Shown here: one piece after another, positions 6,873 to 41,010 of the stretch
How positions within the stretch are numbered: position 1 is the stretch's first letter
How the letters are laid out: each line of letters opens with the position of its first letter
Origin: Endomicrobium sp.
GTDB lineage: Bacteria; Elusimicrobiota; Endomicrobiia; Endomicrobiales; Endomicrobiaceae
NCBI GenBank assembly: GCA_031290155.1
Contig: JAITOB010000013.1
Coordinates: 1 to 64,000 of the forward strand
Direction: 5' to 3'
Length of the DNA stretch: 64,000 nucleotides
Program-made: the position numbers and the translations under genes
The notes under the pieces: generated by a model
Databases searched by the model: none
What the model was told of the DNA's origin: nothing
Seen by the model: only the letters and a program-made list of their open reading frames with translations

Positions 6873-9311
6873 ATGTTAGAGTATAATTCTGCTGAAGTTG
6901 AAAAGAAATGGCAAAGAAAATGGGAAGAAAATAGAGTTTTTGAAAGTAAAGAAATACTTGGGAAAGAAAAATACTATTGTCTTTCTATGTTTGTTTATCC
7001 TTCGGGCAATTTACATATGGGGCATGTCAGAAATTACAGTATAGGAGACGTTTTTGCGCGTTTTTATAAAATGAAAGGAAAAAATGTTTTACATCCCGTA
7101 GGGTGGGATGCTTTTGGACTTCCTGCGGAGAATGCGGCTATAAAAAACAATATTCATCCGTCGAAATGGACAAAGCAAAATATTAACCGTATGAGAGAGC
7201 AGTTTAAGTCTCTGGGGATCTCTTATGACTGGAGCAGGGAATTTGCAACCTGTGATCCGGAATATTATAAGTGGAATCAATGGTTTTTTATAAAAATGTG
7301 GCAGAAAGGACTGATTTTCAGAAAAAACGCAAACGTCAATTGGTGTCCGTCATGTAATACTGTTCTTGCAAATGAACAGGTTTTAAATGGTATGTGCTGG
7401 AGATGCGACAGCCGTACGGAACATATAAATTTAGAGCAGTGGTTTATAAAGATTACAAATTATGCCGATAAACTTTTGGAAGGAAATAAGAGCTTAAATG
7501 GATGGCCGGAACAAGTTTTAGCAATGCAAAGAGACTGGATAGGAAAATCTTTCGGCGCGGAAATAGATTTTGTATTGAATGGACTTAATAAAAAATTAAA
7601 GATATTTACAACAAGACCGGATACGCTTTTCGGCGCAACTTTTATGGTTACGGCGCCGGAACATGAAATTATCAGTGAAATTAAATCTGAAATTACAAAT
7701 TACAATGAAGTCTTAAAATATATAGCCGCAAGCAGTTGCAAATCAAATATAGAGAGAGCTTCAAGCAGGCATAAAACCGGCGTAAAACTTGAAGGAATTA
7801 AAGCAATAAATCCTGCAACCGGAAAAGAAATTCCGGTTTTTACAGCCGACTATGTTTTAACAACATACGGTACTGGAGCAATTATGGCTGTACCCGCACA
7901 CGATCAAAGAGACTGGGAGTTTGCAAAAAAATACAATATACCTGTTACAGAAGTTATAAAGGGGAATAATTCTTCAATTGAAAAATGCGCCTATGAAGAT
8001 GAAGGGATTCTTGTAAATTCCGGACAATTTAGTGGCATAAAATCCGCTGAAGCGTTAAATTTAGTTTCAGAATGGGTTGAAAAACAAGGTTTTGGTAAAA
8101 AAACAGTAAATTTTAAACTTAAAAACTGGCTTATATCAAGACAAAGATATTGGGGAACTCCAATACCCATGATTCACTGCAAAGAGTGCGGTATTGTTCC
8201 TGTGCCGGAGAAAGATTTGCCGGTAGTGCTTCCGGAAGATGTTAAATTTACAGGTAAAGGAGAATCTCCTTTAAAATCAAGCGAAACTTTTTTAAACGTA
8301 AAATGTCCGTTGTGCGGTATGGATGCAAAAAGAGAAACCGACACCATGGATACTTTTGTAGATTCTTCATGGTATTATTTAAGATTCTGCGATCCCCTTA
8401 ATAATCATTCAGCTTTTGACACTGCAAAAGCTGATTACTGGATGCCTGTAAATCAATATATCGGAGGCATAGAACATGCGTGCATGCATTTGGTATATTC
8501 AAGGTTTTGGTATAAAGTTATGAGGGATTTAAATCTAGCCAAACAAGATGAGCCCTTTACAAATCTTTTGACTCAAGGAATGGTGACATTAAACGGCAGC
8601 GCTATGTCTAAGTCAAAAGGAAATATCGTAAGTCCGGACAAGATAATTGAAAAATACGGCGCGGATACCGCAAGGCTTTTTATTCTTTTTGCAGCTCCGC
8701 CGCAAAAACAACTTGATTGGTCGGCAGAAGGCGTTGAAGGATGCTGGCGGTTTATAAATAGAATATGGCGCCTTTTTGATATAGTTAACAAAAAAACTGA
8801 ATTTGCCGCATCTGAAAAAGATAAAACTGATATTTTAAGAATAATGCATCGGACAATAAAAAAAGTTTCTATAGATATTGAAAAAAAGACTCAGTTTAAT
8901 ACAGCAATTTCTTCTGTTATAGAACTTGTAAATGTTTTATATAGCTATAAATATCATTCAAATGACGATGGAATTTCTATGGAAGCATATAAAACGGTAA
9001 TTCTTTTAATGACTCCTTTTATACCTCACATTTGCGAGGAAATATGGGAAATGTTAGGGTATAAAGAATATGTATCGACGCATATGTGGCCTGGATATGA
9101 CGAGAGTATAATAGAAACTTCTTACATCGAACTTCCCGTGCAGATAAACGGCAGATTAAAAGGAAAAATAATGGTACCTGTACAAATTGATGAAGATGAA
9201 GTTAAAAAGACCGTAAATACCAATGGGAAAATAGCGCCGTATTTAAAAGATAAGCAGATAATAAAATTTATATATGTTAAAAATAAAATTGTTACAATAG
9301 TTGTTAAGTAA
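6873..9311 (+). CDS. leuS: Leucyl-tRNA synthetase
   Basis: Class I aminoacyl-tRNA synthetase charging tRNA-Leu. 812 residues, normal for the bacterial form. The HIGH motif appears as HMGH (residues 48-51, in YPSGNLHMGHVRNYS). The zinc-binding insert carries CPSC and a later Cys pair. The CP1 editing domain includes TTRPDTLFGATFM and the YGTGAIMAVPAHD segment. KMSKS appears as AMSKSKGN near residue 577, with the anticodon-binding domain after it. ATG at 6873 follows a weak GAGGT. It heads the leuS-lptE-holA group. Confidence 0.97.
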   Translation: MLEYNSAEVEKKWQRKWEENRVFESKEILGKEKYYCLSMFVYPSGNLHMGHVRNYSIGDVFARFYKMKGKNVLHPVGWDAFGLPAENAAIKNNIHPSKWTKQNINRMREQFKSLGISYDWSREFATCDPEYYKWNQWFFIKMWQKGLIFRKNANVNWCPSCNTVLANEQVLNGMCWRCDSRTEHINLEQWFIKITNYADKLLEGNKSLNGWPEQVLAMQRDWIGKSFGAEIDFVLNGLNKKLKIFTTRPDTLFGATFMVTAPEHEIISEIKSEITNYNEVLKYIAASSCKSNIERASSRHKTGVKLEGIKAINPATGKEIPVFTADYVLTTYGTGAIMAVPAHDQRDWEFAKKYNIPVTEVIKGNNSSIEKCAYEDEGILVNSGQFSGIKSAEALNLVSEWVEKQGFGKKTVNFKLKNWLISRQRYWGTPIPMIHCKECGIVPVPEKDLPVVLPEDVKFTGKGESPLKSSETFLNVKCPLCGMDAKRETDTMDTFVDSSWYYLRFCDPLNNHSAFDTAKADYWMPVNQYIGGIEHACMHLVYSRFWYKVMRDLNLAKQDEPFTNLLTQGMVTLNGSAMSKSKGNIVSPDKIIEKYGADTARLFILFAAPPQKQLDWSAEGVEGCWRFINRIWRLFDIVNKKTEFAASEKDKTDILRIMHRTIKKVSIDIEKKTQFNTAISSVIELVNVLYSYKYHSNDDGISMEAYKTVILLMTPFIPHICEEIWEMLGYKEYVSTHMWPGYDESIIETSYIELPVQINGRLKGKIMVPVQIDEDEVKKTVNTNGKIAPYLKDKQIIKFIYVKNKIVTIVVK

Positions 9312-31756: not shown

Positions 31757-32199
31757 AACAAAAATTGTTATAAATGGTCTTAGAAGAAAGTATGGATTAG
31801 TAAATCAGGAATATTAAATTTATAGTTTATTTCTAAGGCAATTTCTGTCATACCGTTGTGTCAATATAAAACATATACAAATGCTTCCGTATTCCCAACA
31901 ATATAAATAAATAACAGATGCATCCTCTTGATAATTTACTTCCAATCATCATTCAGATTATTCAAGTTCAAATTAGCTTTGCTGTGATTTTACTTTTTTA
32001 CGAGAATAAGTCTATTTTCAAATAAAATCTTCAGAAATACTAATTCCAAAATAACTTAAGTGTTTTATAATGAAATATTGTCCTATAAAAACATACTAAA
32101 ATCAATCAGTTATATTCTATAAATTAGTAAAATATCATACAATAACCATACTAGCACTTATTAATAAATAATATATATTTTTAAATATACAGAGGTATT
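31757..32199. other. Intergenic, nothing recognised
   Basis: About 440 bases, very AT-rich, with no reading frame that resembles protein and no RNA gene. An AGAGG site lies at its right end, before the ATG at 32200. Confidence 0.5.
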
Positions 32200-33757
32200 A
32201 TGAAGAGTTTAAAGGGAAGACTATCGGTGTTCTTTCCGCTTTCTCTATTTTTAATTTTTCATTTTGTCGTTCAAAAATATTCTGTTGGATTAATAAGTTT
32301 TAACGTCGTGAAAGGACGGCGCTTTTTTGTTATTAGCTGTTTTATGCTTTCATTTGTATACGGACAAGCAACCGGCGCAGCAGTTGATAAAGAGTTCGGA
32401 GTTAAAACTGTATATTTGGAAGGCGCATACGATCAGTTGGACACATCATGGTTGGCAAATAATAAAAATAAAGCGGCAGATTCTATATTAAAACAGGATT
32501 GTTGACAGTAGCAGAATACTATTCTGTAAAATCAAATCGTACAGATTTAGTGAGAGGGCTGGAAAATAAAGATACATACTCGCAAAATCTTAAACGATTC
32601 GGCGATATTCTTTTTTCGCAAGATCAAAATCGTCTATACTTAAAAGCATGGATGACAATTTAACATATCTTAAATCGTTATATTTCAACGAAGTGCAGAA
32701 AGATATTGAAGAACTTTCCCAATCGTATGTTTCAGGCAATATTCAAGAAAACAAATTATTTTGCTCTAATGTTAAAGTATGCTCAAAAGCTGGGCGTAGA
32801 TATAAATAATTTATGAAAATATAACTGGGTATATAAATCTTTTAAAAAAATAAAAATATAGATTATAATCGTGCAATGAAAGAATTGGAGTTGTTTGTAT
32901 CAAAACTTAAGGAAATCTTGCCTTATGTGGCGTATGAAATGATAGTTGAAGCTACTGAAAATTTTAAAGAGTTGGATAAACTGTGCACGTATCTTATAAA
33001 ACTTTCCAGAGAAAACCATATAGATTTATCAATAAATTTTCCAGAATTAAATAAATTTTTAAGTTACACAGAATTAAGGCAAAAAATAGACCCCGTAGAA
33101 CTGTTTAAAGAGGAAGAGAGATTAAAAACTGAAATAAACGCAGCTTTTTCTATGGATCAATCCAGAAGAGATATAGTATTTTAGCCGGGTTCAGCAGGTA
33201 TTTAAAAGATTATTTGTCAAGCAAAATAACATCAGATGATTATGAATATTGTAAAGCGAACATATAAGAGTTTAAAAGATTGTGGGTGAAAATATGTCGA
33301 TAATAAAAAATTAGCGACGATAGGGCCTTATGAAAAGACGGCAGATACGTTTTATGATATTAATGTCGCCAGAAACCAATGTTTCATAGATAATATAGAC
33401 AGCATTAAAGATTCAAATAAAATAACAGCCGTACATGAGCCTAGCCTTTTGGCAGCGGATAAAGTAATAAAATTCTTAAAAGAAGCAAAAACATTTCGGT
33501 AATAATTGCCAGCGGTTTTCACACTCAAGGAGTATCGGAATTATTAACAAAACAGGGAATATCTTACGCCAATTATAAACGAAGACGTTAAAACAGCTGG
33601 AAATACATATTATACGTTAGCAAAAGAACAAAGCAAAGTGTTATTTCAGACTTTGGCGGTAGAGTTTCTTTCGCCGCTAAACCCTGAACAGCGGGCAATA
33701 GAAATTGCGCCATTTCTAGGACAAAAAAGATATACGATAGGAAGCAATGAATGAATA
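32200..33757 (+). pseudogene. N-terminal module of a decayed large protein
   Basis: ATG at 32200 with AGAGG upstream. The first 101 codons are open: two hydrophobic segments, then FGVKTVYLEGAYDQLDTSWL. The reading continues in other frames: LLTVAEYYSVKSNRTDLVRG and LENKDTYSQNLKRFGDILF (32500-32620), a helical stretch from 32876 to 33184 that is intact for 102 codons (LSRENHIDLSINFPELNKFL), IIASGFHTQGVSELLTKQGI (33500-33562) and INEDVKTAGNTYYTLAKEQS (33577-33640), ending near 33757. The VxLEG...DTSWL, GLENK and GFHTQGVSELL patterns recall large uncharacterised proteins of related phyla, perhaps with a TraB/EreA-like fold; that fold is only a guess. About six lesions. Confidence 0.55.
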
Positions 33758-34620
33758 TTTCCAAGAAACTTTGCGGGAAGGAATTCAAACAAGAATTTCG
33801 GGAAATCTTGATAATGAAAAACAGCGTTAGGCTTACTGCCGCTAAAGACGGGCGTATTACGGAATATGAATACAGTAAAGAAACGAGTTTTTTACCGATA
33901 ACAGAAGAAATTCAAACGACGCCGTCGTCAGTTGAATCGTCAACGAAACAGTCAGGCGGCGTGATATGGACAACAATCGTCAAGATAATTATTTCTGCAT
34001 TTACTGCATTAGATCTGGCAATAACGCTGATTGTATGTCCTCATTTTTGGTGTGTTGCTATAATTCCTATGCTGATGGCGCTTTTTAAACTTTCTTCAGG
34101 AATTTATGAGTTAGTGTATATAAGAAATGCAAAGATGGCAGTAGAAATGGCGTCGGCAAATTTAATATCAAGCGATACGTCTGATTTACCTGATATTGTG
34201 CTAAAAGAATTGATTGAATCGCTGCCTGAAGATATTGGACTTCCTGCGGAAAATTTTGCATTAGACAATAGTACGGAATTTGATATTTTTATGCATTACG
34301 ACGACAACGACGGATTTATACATTTAAACCCTTTAATGATCGGAGCTTTCTTTTTTGATAAAGCTGGCAAGAACATAATGAACGAAAAGCTGTTAGAAAT
34401 ATTTATAAAGCACGAGCTAAAACGTAAAGATTTTGCTCAATCTGCCGTCATTATTCATAAAATACCATTCATAGAAAATTTTTTAGTTTCAGTTTTTGAC
34501 ATTTTTAATTTGCTGATCATAATGCCAAAAACAATAATATCGGCAGTAATGCATCAAGCTAATGCTCCGGTAAAAGAAACAGCTAAAACTTCTGCTGCCT
34601 CAGAGCGGCTGTATTATTAG
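33751..34620 (+). pseudogene. Membrane plus HEL-type module of the same decayed protein
   Basis: An open frame of 289 codons, but its first 27 codons are probably out of frame: another frame there reads MNEYFQETLREGIQTRISGN and joins better to the previous fragment. After it come a Thr/Ser linker, two membrane helices (IWTTIVKIIISAFTALDLAI and a second to residue about 112), then a soluble part with DGFIHLNPLMIGAFFFD and LLEIFIKHELKRKDF. The layout 'IHLNP...HEL' resembles M48-type metallopeptidases, yet the second His of HExxH is missing, so activity is doubtful. A closely similar module recurs at 38.8 kb. The frame could be expressed on its own, although no ribosome-binding site is seen. Confidence 0.5.
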
Positions 34621-34622
34621 GA

Positions 34623-37600
34623 GTGTTGGAAGAGACAATTCCAGGTATTCAGCAGCTTCCCGACGCAGCGGCAGCTCTTAAAGATGCGATAGTCAGTTCT
34701 GCTGCCGGCATAACTACGGAGAAAGAAACAGCTGCTGGAGAAGAAGTAAAATCTAAAACGACTAAGAGAATAGACGTGGCAATGAATATAGTTACGGCTG
34801 TTTTATTTATTTTCTTAGTATTTCCGATATACCGGCGTGAGTAGTTACCGCGGTGCCGATAGCTATAGCTGTTTTAGGGATATTAACAGTGTATATTAGG
34901 AAGTGGATAGAAACAGGACATATTGAATGGAATGATTTGACAAAAATTGCTCTTGCAGTTATGCCTTCGTCGGTAGGCGTATTTGGGTACAGGAGTAGGA
35001 AAAGCAGTAATATACATAGAACCTTAATAATAGTAACTGTATCAACAGGAGCAACGCAAACATCAAATACTGTTCCAGCAGTTTCTGCTGCGCAGCAGAA
35101 ACGTTTAGTAACGGGAGATTCCTATTCTGTTAAAACGGGAGCCGCAGAAGAAACAATGGGATTACTTTCAGAAACAACAGAATTAACTGCAGTAACAATG
35201 AGCAGCGGTATCGGCAATAACAGAAGGAGCTTCAAAAGCATCAATATTAGAAGCCGTATCAACAATAACAAGAGCGGCATTGATAACGCCAAAACAAGAT
35301 GCAGGTATAATTTGCCCTGCAAAAGTCAGTATCGCCGGTTATAGCAGGAGCTTTAGGAGCGCCGCCGCCAGTTTTAAGGCAGCTTGGAGTTGCCGAAGGT
35401 TTAGATGAAATTTTAGCGCAGGCTGCTGTGAAAGACGTTAAATTTTATTCAGTAAAAACCGTTCCGCCTGATTTTAAAAATATGTTTGAAATTGAATCAG
35501 TACAGGAAGAGGGAAATTATATTCAAACATTATTGTCAAAATTAATGAACTCCGGGAGCGCCGATGCTGTTATTATAGCGAGTGCGGTAAAGATTTTGGA
35601 TTTAAATAAAAAAGATTTGCAAGAGATTATAAACACTGTGGCGGCGAGCGGTAATTCTGCAAGAATGTTTATCAGACTTAGATATAGATTAATCACTAAA
35701 GTGTATGAGAAAATATTAGAAAGATTAAAAAATAATGAAAACCCTGACGCAGTTCTCAATTGGGCGCTGCCTACGAGTTCGGTAATGGTGTTGAGAAATA
35801 TGAGCGGCTTAGGGATAATTGATGCCGAAAGTATTAGAAATATTGTTGCTTCTCTTCCTGCACAGGCGGATTTATTCAGCGAAATTATGTATCAAAAAAA
35901 GTTGTAATGCTGGAATACGATAAAATAAAAGATTATCTGCCTAAAAATTTTACCGATAAGAAATTTAAAAATGAGTTTACAAATAAAATATTGGGTGATG
36001 CAATGACGTCTGTTTCAGACAACCCTGTCACTATCGCCAACAACGTATTTGCCTGTGCTATGACAGACGAACTTACATCCAGGCTTTCCAGCGCCGGCAG
36101 TTTTAACAGGAAAGATTTGGAACAGCTTAAATTTATTTTTAGATCTTTACCGGATGTTCTTAGCGAGCAAGAGTATAACAATTTAACCGTTGATTCTATA
36201 CCGTTAATGGAAATATTAACGTCAGCGGCTAAGTTAATAAATTCAGCCGCAGGACGCGCATGGAAATTACGCGCGGCTGCCGTTCTTGCAGATTTGGAAA
36301 TTGTATATATTGATGCCGTAAAATAAATATTAAAGATACTCTGCCCTATTTACAGAAAAGAGCCGGAAAAATGGGTATTTTGGTTGAAGCTTTAGAGCGG
36401 TCAGCCAAAGTGTAGGGATTATCTGACGTCCAGCAAGAATCAGTAAAACAAAAGCTGATTATAGTGCGGCAAGAAGAAATTAATTTGAGATATATGGAAC
36501 TATTATTTTCTAAGGCAGACGATTATAATAGGTATGTCGGACCAAATGACATAATTCCTTCTACAAACATATCTATGAAAAGCATAATAAATGCTTTGCC
36601 GGTAGATGATGATATTATAAATATAAACAAAATAGCAGATAAGGATATTAGTAAATACGCTTAATGATTTTGCCTCAAATCCTAATGACTTTTTTGATAA
36701 GGACAAACTGCAGCAACTCAGAGTAGTTTTGTTCCAGTTTATCAATCAGATAATAAGCAAGTTGCTGAATTTAATTACGCATTTAATAAAATTTTTGAAA
36801 ATTTAGTAAATAGCAAAACTTATTTAAGATATATATTAAGAACAACAGCGGAATATTTGCTAAGGTCGGCAGATGGAAATGTCGGGAAAATAAAATTTGC
36901 CGCTGTTATAGATAAATTTGCGCTTGACTTCACAGAGTCTAATTCAGATAACATACTAGCACAACAAAGATAATAAATACTTTGTCAAATGCATTGAATC
37001 AATTAATTACTGCGATTCCAAATACCAACGAACGTGAACGTATACAAAAAACATTATTAACTGAAATATTACGTCAAGAGATTAATATAATCAACGGGCA
37101 ATTCTGCATATACAATACTTTAATTGACACTGGAACTGATGTCGAAGCTGAATCTAAATCTGAATTCGACTCTGAATTCGATCCTAAAAACAGATCTTTA
37201 AAAGATGAATTAAAAAAATTGGTTGAATATAGAAACTCTGTAGAAACTATATTGTATAGTCTGGGCGTTTCTGATAATTTGCGGGCTGTAAGATATATTA
37301 GGCAGAGAAATCTGATTATAAAAAATGAACCGGATTTTGAATTTTCTTCTTTAGCGACTGCAAGTTATAAAACGACGATTTCATATTTAGACAAAATGAT
37401 GGCGTTCAACGTATCGTCTGAGCCGATACAGGAAAATTTGCCGCAGGAAGCAAAAATTTTGAAATTATTAAAAATTCTGCAAATGACGCTTACCTGTTTA
37501 ACTTAATGCAGAATTCTAAAATAAGATATAAACTCCAGATTATATGCTTTTGGACAGTTGAAGGCCAGGGGCGTAGATAAAGTAAATGGCGTTAACATAG

Positions 37601-38640
37601 ATACATATTCACAAACTTTAATTCCTATTGTTATTTCAATGTTACAAGCCAAAAGTTTAAAAGTGTCGGCTTCTTATTTTAATTTAAGGGTGCTGTGTTA
37701 GAAATAAATCTAGTATCCGGCTCAGAAGTAACGAAAGCGGTAATTAAAAGAGGATTTTCACAAGACGGCATTAAGACGGGAGAGCAAAATTTGTACGCAA
37801 AGATGTTACAAGCCAATTTTTTTAAAGAAACAGAAACGTCGGGACTTAATGCAAATTCCGGTCTTAATTTTGTACGTTTTCAAGATCAGCATAAACACGT
37901 TATGAAGATGAATATAATTCTATTATTGGGTTATAGCCCACGAGCTCGGGCATATTTATCTAAATACGTTAGATACAAATAAGAAACTGGTTGCCAGAAC
38001 GTCTGCAGGGAATATGTTTCATGAATTTACTGCCGATGCGGTTTCAGGAGTATTTAATTCTATTTTGCAGAATAATATATTAAGAATACAAAGCGTCAGC
38101 AGGCGCGAGCTGAAATTTAAAGTATTTACAGATAAAAAACAAGACGAAAAAAAGCGCAGGAAGAACATGGAGCGGCAAGAGGCTTGTTAAATGCTCTTAA
38201 GGCTGCTTTGAAAAAAGCAGACAGATTATCGATTTAATCATTTATTAAAAGTTTCTATTATGATCGCTATGACCGCGATACCGTCTTTTTTGGCGAAGGA
38301 CAACAGTCCGCAGTAGCTAAAGAGCTTATTGTTTCTGCCGCTGACATTATAAAAGAAATTGAACCCGGTATCGACAGAGGAGAATTTCTTTTATAATTTT
38401 TTGCTTCTGTTTGGATTAAACTATTTGACATTAAACGCGTTGTTTTCGATACAAGTTCAAGCGGTATTGTTTTTAGATTGGAACCTAAAGAATTGGAACA
38501 ATCCATAAGCGTTGTCTTAGATACTATTGCAGATGCTGCCAGAGGCGGCACAGCTGCAGAGCTTTACATAAAATGACGGTTGGTCACGCGGCGCAGTTGA
38601 CCTTTGAAATGATGTTGCAATTTATGTCTTAAGTGAAAAA
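34623..38640 (+). pseudogene. Helical C-terminal part of the decayed large protein
   Basis: About 4 kb in which the plus strand is always protein-like in one frame but switches often. Main pieces: 34623-34844 and 34853-35100 (two membrane helices, the second WIETGHIEWNDLTKIALAVM), 35350-35907 (LGVAEGLDEILAQAAVKDVK to an end at 35907), 35907-36326 (139 intact codons), 36464-36960, 36982-37506 (174 intact codons), 37695-37982, 37980-38190 and 38280-38574 with one in-frame TAA. All are acidic, alpha-helical and Leu/Ile/Asn-rich without Cys-rich or catalytic motifs I can name. At least twelve lesions. It reads on from the two modules upstream, so the original protein may have exceeded 2,000 residues. 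Confidence 0.5.
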
Positions 38641-38739
38641 TTTTGAAGAATCTGCAGTGCAACTTGTACAGCAAGTGTCAAACGCTGTAAAAACGGGCGA
38701 TTATTTTATAAATAATACTAATAAGAGATTTTAGATAAA

Positions 38740-41010
38740 ATTATTGGAATTTTATCTCTGGAACGCAGAGAAGAATTTGAACAAGCTGTTTCAAATGAAG
38801 AGGATATATCCGAAGACGCTGCGATGTCTTATAACAGTAAAGACGGTAAAATACATTTAAATTACGCAATGCTTCGCACAATGTTTTTTGACTTGAACGG
38901 GGATATTAAAAATAAAGAGCTTTTAGAACTGATAGAAATGCGCGAACTTAAATATAAAAATTATTCGGAATCTTCAAATCCTGTTAAAATGGCTATTAGA
39001 AATATTCCAAAGTTGGAAGAATTTATGATTTCACTAGGAGATATCTATAATTGGATTCGTTTACACAGAGGTATGGGAGATGATCCCGCTTGAAAATGAA
39101 ACGCCGGTAAATCCGTTATTGTCAAGAGGAGAATTTACAGGGAATGCTGTTTTAGCAGGATATGATGCGTTTAAAAATGTACCGGATGAACAAATTAAAG
39201 TTCATAAGACAATAAAAGACAGGGTCGTCAGACTTTTGGATACTGGGCCTCTGCAAGAGTCTTCAGCAACAGATACAACGTATCGATAAAATCTCCAAGA
39301 TTTGCTTATCGTTAATGCCGATGAAAGAACACCCGCTTATATTAACGCTTTTGCACAAGCAGGATTATTAAAAAGAAAGGTTATTCAGCGGCAGTTGTTG
39401 AACGCATAACTGGCGAAGTTAATATGAGAGACTATTATAGAATTCCGGTGAATGTTTCATTTACTATAGATAATAATGATTTTGTTTATGAAGCATATGT
39501 AAGACAGATAGACGGAATACACGTTATAGGATTAAAATTAAAAGGCAGTTATGCCGGTACGGATTTAGATGCTGAGAAAAATTCCACCGCGGCTTCCTTG
39601 GCTTTTGTAAAAGATATTAACACAAGCAGCCTTCGTAATAATTTAAATACGTTAAAAGAAAACGGCGCATTAGCAACGAATGCAATAACAAGCAGTTTGG
39701 AAATAAATCAAAATGGCGCGGCTATGGTAAATTTTGTCGGATTTTAAATAAATACAGATTCTTTGTTTGTCGATGAAACCGGCGGCGCAAGAACGATAAA
39801 AAGAGCGATTTTAAAGGCATTAGTTATATTGTAAACGGAGCAGATATAATCGAAGAAAATCTGACGACAATAGATCAGGATATTAAAGCAGAACGGCTTT
39901 TTAAACTCGGCAATTCAGAAAAGTATTATCAAATTGATGTAAAAAGCGGCAGACTTGACGAAATGTTTATTGATAATGCAGTAAAAGGGAAAATAAACTA
40001 GGAAGCTGCGGCTATAATTCTAGATATTACTGACGGGTTTAATACTAACGCTGCCGAAACAAGAAAAAATTAATTATCGCAGTAGAGATAATTCATTCTT
40101 ATGAGTTAAAAGCAACGATTAAAGTGGATATTACAAGACTCTCGGGCAGTTTTGAAAGCGCGTTTAATGCTTTGTTTGGGTTAAATTTTGACGGAATAAG
40201 TATTGAAGCTGTCAACGTTGAAGATATTACTGTACTGCAGTCAGCTCTTTACAGCTTTAGCGGTAAAAGAAGAAGATTACAATACTCTCTTTATAACAGA
40301 ATTTGACATAGAAACCAGGCATGCGGCGATTAAAGCCCGCAAAGCTGTTGAAGCGTTTGAAGGGTATCAAAGGGGAAAAGAAACAGCAGAGATGGATATT
40401 ATTGTTAATGCGTCAAATATAGTGGCATTATCCGATAGGATGCCGCATCTGTTTCAGCCGGTAAAATTAAGGAAGTTGTAAAACTGCCGGTATGAATTCA
40501 GAGTTGGTAAAAATTTTGATAAAATGCTCAGTGGAACAGACGCTGATGTAACGGGAACGGAGAATATCCTGGAGTCAGCAGGGTTTTTTAAGGGCATTGT
40601 TTATTTCAAGTCCGGCAGTGTTTAAGAGTAAAGAATCTTTAACAGCATTTTTTAAAGAGATAAATGATAATTTAATGAATAGTCAAAACGGGCGGAGAAC
40701 TTTGCCGGATGAGAAAAAAGATACAGTAAGTTTTGTTAATAGTCCTATTAATAAATTTGAATCTGAAAGATGTGTTGGCAATGAATCTGAACAGATAGTG
40801 GCTCTTTCTATGAATTTGGCTGTTATAAATGATACTATGAACGAACTTACATTTAGAAGAATTGCGGACGAGGCTAAAAAATCGCCGCATTATCTACAGC
40901 CGTTTTGTCAAGCATACCAGGAGCGGCATAATTTCAAGTTTCAAAGAATTTTTTATTATATTTTATTGTTGATAATATTTGTTGCAGATACTTTGTTTTA
41001 TGTTTTATAA
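38740..41010 (+). pseudogene. Second, paralogous copy of the large-protein module
   Basis: The piece at 38760-39093 reads DGKIHLNYAMLRTMFFD, then LLELIEMRELKYKNY and IPKLEEFMISLGDIYNWI, matching the module at 34.3 kb position by position, but with HEL changed to REL. After it, helical pieces follow at 39080-39289, 39290-39420, 39424-39747 (107 intact codons, YRIPVNVSFTIDNNDFVYEA), 39800-40000, 40060-40300, 40203-40481 and 40597-41010, the last being 137 intact codons ending in a membrane helix (YYILLLIIFVADTLFYVL). I read it as a tandem duplicate whose N-terminal half is lost. At least eight lesions. Confidence 0.5.

Follow-up and report, generated by a model that had tools for sequence, protein, structure and literature searches.

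Remains of a single giant gene with repeated metallopeptidase-like modules in an Endomicrobium genome, and its intact relatives

The 64,000 nucleotides analysed here (the window) belong to contig JAITOB010000013.1, contig 12 of the 36-contig, 1.11-Mb genome of Endomicrobium sp. GCA_031290155.1, a termite-gut symbiont, and contain 8.7 kb of plus-strand sequence that are almost certainly the remains of one giant gene with a small zincin-like module (the HEL module) near each end (Table 1). The colinear partners of this relic in tblastn searches were single intact open reading frames (ORFs) of 7,325-8,305 amino acids (aa) from sister species, which covered about 7.6 kb of positions 32188-40881 in order and on the plus strand; the 8,305-aa protein of genome G019, for example, kept its order throughout, with residue 120 aligned at 32386 and residue 8289 at 40881. 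Relatives' frames of 7,325-8,358 aa were confirmed to be single on their contigs, and it is because single intact polypeptides match the whole stretch colinearly that one gene is proposed. Open blocks are still recognisable in all three frames from 32.2 to 40.9 kb, and per-position frame assignment revealed at least 20 frame switches over the 7.6 kb of matched sequence, in agreement with an earlier reading of the DNA letters by eye (the sequence-only reading), which had described the strand as protein-like in shifting frames. That reading had given the decayed stretch ten kilobases; the gene ends at 40931, where a counterpart of the family's C-terminal tail lies in another frame. Large central parts of the intact giants are missing from the relic.

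Table 1. Features of the decayed giant gene (window coordinates)
Feature	Position	Strand	Remarks
Whole relic	32200..40931	+	One decayed giant gene, about 2.9 thousand aa as it stands; colinear tblastn, frame count, open blocks
N-terminal basic leader plus hydrophobic stretch with SFVYGQA at its end	32200..32385	+	Export-signal-like (by inspection); tblastn to G009C1 residues 19 onward
Tiki/Ere/ChaN-superfamily-like domain, broken	32386..33739	+	E 1.5e-99 to A1 profile; 11 stops
Membrane-spanning-like hydrophobic segments behind the N-domain	34000..34110	+	IIISAFTALDLAITLIVCPHFWCVAIIPMLMALF; by inspection
HEL module 1 (IHLN ... HELKR ... FIENFLVS)	34312..34509	+	HELKR at 34411-34425; second His and invariant downstream Glu both replaced
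Helical middle region, broken	35401..37695	+	Homologous to the giants' middle; tblastn blocks
HELGH gluzincin-like module	37525..38470	+	HELGH at 37939-37953; third-ligand-like Glu at 38023-38025 in HEFTAD; motif intact, flanks frame-shifted
HEL module 2 (IHLN ... RELKY ... LEEFMIS)	38725..39090	+	Frame 1 (DGKIHLNYAMLRTMFFD); RELKY at 38941-38955; both His lost, downstream Glu kept
Conserved C-terminal region, about 600 aa	39346..40881	+	Several frames; neither a PDB match nor a convincing one in Pfam
C-terminal tail STAVLSSIPGAA and stop	40893..40931	+	Equivalent of the family LxAA tail STNAVKSILGAA and stop

The two HEL modules share 41% identity over 80 aa (BLASTP, E 6e-16), and a whole-genome search with module 1, which sits in ORF 33751-34620 (DGFIHLNPLMIGAFFFD), recovered module 2 at E 8e-12, confirming the duplicated IHLN...HEL module noticed in the sequence-only reading. 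In intact HEL modules (alignment A5, n = 19, chosen for HExxH), both His and the Glu of H-E-x-x-H, plus a Glu 22 residues on, are invariant; these relatives thus carry the minigluzincin motif (HExxH with a downstream Glu), which the window copies, HELKR and RELKY, do not. The best named Foldseek matches of the HEL module were selecase minigluzincins (probability 0.72, 0.69, and 0.54; E 0.7-1.3). The HEL box is therefore metallopeptidase-like and without its second His in HELKR, as had been claimed; M48 peptidases are a less fitting comparison, as the Pfam scans gave no M48 match and the best named structural matches are the selecase minigluzincins.

In addition, the relic harbors a canonical HELGH...HEFTAD zinc motif, overlooked in the earlier reading, with positions 37930-38046 reading VIAHELGHIYLNTL...MFHEFTADAVSG. 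The gluzincin motif, namely HExxH with a downstream Glu in ExxxD, is present in the window at 37939-38037 as well as in the relatives, where HELGH and the later HExxAD (ExxxD) are invariant in 10 intact modules. In the modelled copy of the relatives' HELGH module (AlphaFold2; predicted local distance difference test, pLDDT, 82.3; predicted template-modelling score, pTM, 0.84), the Glu and Asp follow the second His by 20 and 24 residues, the spacing of thermolysin. The leading Foldseek matches of this model were M4 peptidases (the two top-ranked at probability 0.98 and 0.95; lowest E 0.15), suggesting that the HELGH modules resemble M4 gluzincins. Profile comparison of HEL with HELGH aligned the motif alone (17 columns, probability 5.8), and the two are therefore treated as different modules.

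At the N-terminal end, the VYGQ of the relic's leader also occurs in intact relatives, and the domain behind it corresponds to an N-domain of about 530 aa (alignment A1, mean column identity 71%). The signatures VYLEGAYDQLDTSW, GLENK, and GFHTQGVSELL, described earlier as an extra N-terminal module, all have counterparts in the intact proteins. Across 65 sequences, residues D45, H47, E75, G460, G461, and H463 are invariant, and the N-domain contains the 2His/2Glu catalytic set with a His-Glu spacing of 28 (D45-x-H47, E75, H463), Asp replacing the first Glu. The same spacing has been reported for RRSP (H3902/E3930) and Bcr135 (H85/E113) (PMC6254334). In the relic the Tiki-type set is incomplete, the IQDLHLHP stretch being deleted while VYLEGAY and GFHTQG are still present. 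A hidden Markov model of A1 found distant giants of the phylum, L157, L160, and L163, at 2e-20 to 3e-23, and L157 (2.9e-23) scored 27.8 bits with PF04187 (Haem-binding uptake, Tiki superfamily, ChaN; cut-off 27.7), a match lying where A1 matches too. The window's close relatives did not match PF04187 directly, a PF01963 search gave nothing above cut-off, and a PDB sequence profile search with the N-domain returned chance-level matches. As to the parallel beta-sheet core of the superfamily, Foldseek analysis of an AlphaFold2 model of L069 residues 74-964 (N-domain plus HEL; pLDDT 80.9, pTM 0.65, mostly confident in the N-domain) listed EreC (6xcs, E 0.57) and 3b55 (Ere-family Bcr135, E 2.8). 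Taken together, the L157/PF04187 link, the 28-residue spacing, and the Foldseek matches point to the Tiki/Ere/ChaN hydrolase superfamily for the N-terminal domain of the intact relatives, an assignment made with good, though incomplete, confidence.

The C-terminal 600 aa are conserved within the genus, and a PDB sequence profile search with this region gave chance-level matches. A GGGP-family match (E 0.008) gives no more than a tentative impression of a TIM barrel. The LxA[AS] ending was found in 15 of the 19 complete ORFs with an N-domain versus 3 of 298 other complete ORFs of at least 250 aa; two of these three (each 3.2 thousand aa) lie upstream of an N-domain giant and the third (1,161 aa) lies directly behind a truncated giant. 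This tail, seen among the C-termini of L042-L121, sits on otherwise unalignable ends, those of distant members aligning only at their last residues, and farther out in the order and phylum it fades to LxAG or vanishes.

Homologues of the module-1 ORF were detected in 10 of 60 relatives, every one a member of the same genus; their open frames reach 8,358 aa, and the HEL module often recurs within a single frame. A survey of 295 genomes of the phylum with the A1 profile gave matches in 64, with ORFs of up to 12,656 aa. Relatives thus have intact homologues, and the similarity between the two modules is significant, so that the condition under which the sequence-only reading would have been refuted does not hold. 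Its proposal of a very large protein, membrane-anchored and now decayed, in which a module occurs twice is supported. Copy number varies, with about 18 loci in each of two relatives, three in G009, and two in G030. In five species, a small ORF (about 200-225 aa, hydrophobic N-terminus) was also observed directly upstream of a giant (G019 C16, G004 C17, G017 C16, G022 C6, and G030 C13). Pfam scans of window fragments, two whole giants, and single modules yielded nothing above cut-off, as did an NCBIfam search, and a search of a viral structure library gave nothing significant; weak Pfam matches to a SUB1 prodomain and M1 in window fragments and whole giants were set aside.

The gene is dead in this genome: ligands are missing from both HEL sites, a deletion has removed the first Tiki catalytic stretch, and the frame is interrupted all along. 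Purifying selection acts on the intact copies: the ratio of non-synonymous to synonymous substitution rates (dN/dS) among intact orthologues was 0.09-0.15 for the N-domain, 0.14-0.47 for HEL 1, 0.40 for HELGH, and 0.31 for HEL 2. This includes other members of the flagellate-endosymbiont genus, Candidatus Endomicrobiellum, which holds all characterised flagellate endosymbionts (PMC11257099). Decayed copies were identified in the window's genome, G014, and G115, those elsewhere in the genus being L169, L170, and L171. One decayed copy in G115 (cryptotermitis; L170, 2583-12533) is in places >90% identical to the intact protein of G030 (incisitermitis) with internal stretches missing, and is a much younger, recent stage of the same decay process. 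The A1 profile had no N-domain match in G075, which belongs to another genus in the same family, is a single contig of 1.6 Mb, and may represent the free-living isolate. The suggestion that the gene was abandoned during symbiosis is therefore too simple: other Endomicrobiellum species keep intact copies of low dN/dS and G075, outside that genus, has none, so that symbiosis itself does not explain the loss.

The intact polypeptides show a common order, with the leader followed by the Tiki/Ere/ChaN-type domain, hydrophobic stretches, a HEL module, a variable middle with zero to several HELGH modules (in some members a putative SecA-like motor instead), a second HEL module in the longer members, and the conserved C-terminal region, ending, mostly so in Endomicrobiia, in LxAA. 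As a whole, the locus is best explained as the relic of one gene for a giant exported, membrane-anchored multi-hydrolase (probability roughly 0.55). The intact protein would be exported and held in or on the envelope via its membrane segments, one chain displaying several separate hydrolytic sites that may cleave or process extracytoplasmic proteins and peptides, either of neighbouring or host cells or of the cell's own envelope, and copies with lost zinc ligands might serve as scaffolds. Motif conservation and weak structural matches make it reasonably likely that intact members are multi-site hydrolases; an outward, cell-cell role, whose target is suggested by lifestyle alone, is put forward tentatively. 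More speculatively, Endomicrobiia might hold a lineage-specific, multi-copy system of giant multi-hydrolases destined for export, their central modules interchangeable and their dedicated LxAA tail read by an export or processing machine, the system being retained by selection in eroding flagellate endosymbionts and repeatedly lost.

Several observations weigh against a multi-hydrolase. All Foldseek matches stay short of E 0.001 (the lowest E is 0.5 with the N-domain plus HEL model and 0.15 with HELGH), so motifs and match probability carry the fold assignments. The PF04187 link exceeds its cut-off by only 0.1 bit and passes through one intermediate, L157. Some intact paralogues carry HELRR or HELRK, hence a missing second His alone does not signify decay and the HEL modules are not always enzymes. 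Furthermore, the C-terminal third has no known relative, and export, topology, and substrate are deduced from sequence, the leader and membrane segments having been recognised by inspection.

A Walker A motif of GTGGGK type was detected behind the HEL region in 12 of 65 giants, most of which have a DEAH further on. Giants with such motor motifs include L058, L047, L056, L060, L063, L065, L070, and L072, and L058 adds a RAGRSG-type motif and weak Pfam matches to Helicase_C and SecA_PP_bind (E 1.3e-4 and 6e-4, below cut-offs). Among PDB sequences the motor module matched PRP28 alone (E 0.006), and the module of some giants may be SecA-like. These motifs lend weight to the possibility that the intact giants are contact-dependent or delivered polyvalent effectors whose chain, in some cases with a SecA-like motor, enters other cells, where the peptidase and Tiki-like domains act. 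The numerous paralogues of differing size within a genome and the existence of Tiki-superfamily effectors (PMC6254334) are consistent with this, whereas the leader and several membrane segments suggest envelope anchoring and the type found in the window has no motor; such delivery is considered unlikely. Similarly unlikely is that the protein is a giant adhesin or a scaffold of the envelope, with most enzyme-like modules being non-catalytic binding domains: the HELRR/HELRK paralogues, one giant's weak mid-protein match to a Listeria-Bacteroides repeat (E 0.047), and the adhesin role proposed for giant ORFs of Omnitrophota (PMC10066038) would fit, but invariance of the Tiki motif residues in 65 sequences and of HExxH plus ExxxD across the HELGH modules argues against it. 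Two tandem paralogous genes, as proposed in the sequence-only reading, are highly improbable; related modules do lie 4.5 kb apart with helical sequence behind each, yet single intact ORFs span both, the best matches are positional (module 1 with the N-side copy of the G019 protein, about residues 790-865, and module 2 with its C-side copy, 7490-7602), and no second leader, N-domain, or LxAA tail was seen between them. That the gene is really intact and the breaks come from assembly or sequencing errors, or that its frameshifting is programmed, as the blocks open in all three frames might recall, can practically be dismissed: the housekeeping genes on either side are unbroken, the frame changes come together with deletions and lost ligands, and other genomes of the genus hold the decayed copies L169, L170, and L171.

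The intact genes flanking the relic comprise dnaX, recR, pyruvate:ferredoxin oxidoreductase, and a purB/purN/purM-like group, and an RNA-family search of the window returned tRNAs only. A second decayed gene occupies 41.1-45.4 kb on the minus strand, with superfamily 1 (SF1) helicase pieces (GPPGTGKSHTIANLI, AAA_11 E 2.4e-5, VSRAKDKIILVHS) and a nuclease-like C-terminal end; it is possibly a lost defence gene. In addition, the plus strand at 20-25 kb has few long ORFs and broken surface-protein-like pieces, with an OmpA-like end (VNAVIFETNKADLKAEGEKEIESLTELLG) near 24.4 kb, and is probably another decayed surface gene.

Elusimicrobiota are enriched in proteins >5,000 aa without COG assignment (PMC11573180), so far a statistic, and one family of these huge proteins now gets a conserved architecture. 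Its plausible active sites could be expressed singly, so that what giant proteins do in host-associated bacteria can be tested one module at a time, and a natural contrast is offered by a single endosymbiont genus in which copies are intact, decaying, or missing. A published description of the family was not found in a search short of preprints and most subscription papers, and the main text of the Endomicrobia genome paper contains none of the words 'giant', 'peptidase', 'effector', or 'pseudogene'.

Compared with known systems, the giants' N-domain shares with Tiki/EreA/ChaN proteins (PF04187, PF01963, PF05139) the acidic-x-His, the Glu at +28, and the late His, and differs in having Asp rather than Glu as the first acidic residue, a helical insert of about 380 aa between the motifs, and fusion to a giant chain. 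The HEL module resembles the minigluzincin selecase of Methanocaldococcus in its small sheet, HExxH helix, and Glu helix about 22 residues on (Foldseek probability at most 0.72), whereas its E-values are not significant, it is repeated inside a giant protein, and its ligands are lost in some copies. Likewise, HELGH shares HExxH plus ExxxD with M4 peptidases (thermolysin, vibriolysin), which top its Foldseek matches, but it has no Pfam M4 match, mostly helical surroundings, and several copies per chain. For the giants as a whole, the huge proteins of Elusimicrobiota (PMC11573180) come from the same phylum, and no family or domain description was found in that survey. Giant genes are also known in Omnitrophota, e.g., that of a 39,678-aa Velamenicoccus protein (PMC10066038); by description these are likewise huge, rich in membrane segments, and found in host- or prey-associated lineages, but their conservation is described as poor, and a role as adhesins or in polysaccharide degradation has been proposed for them.

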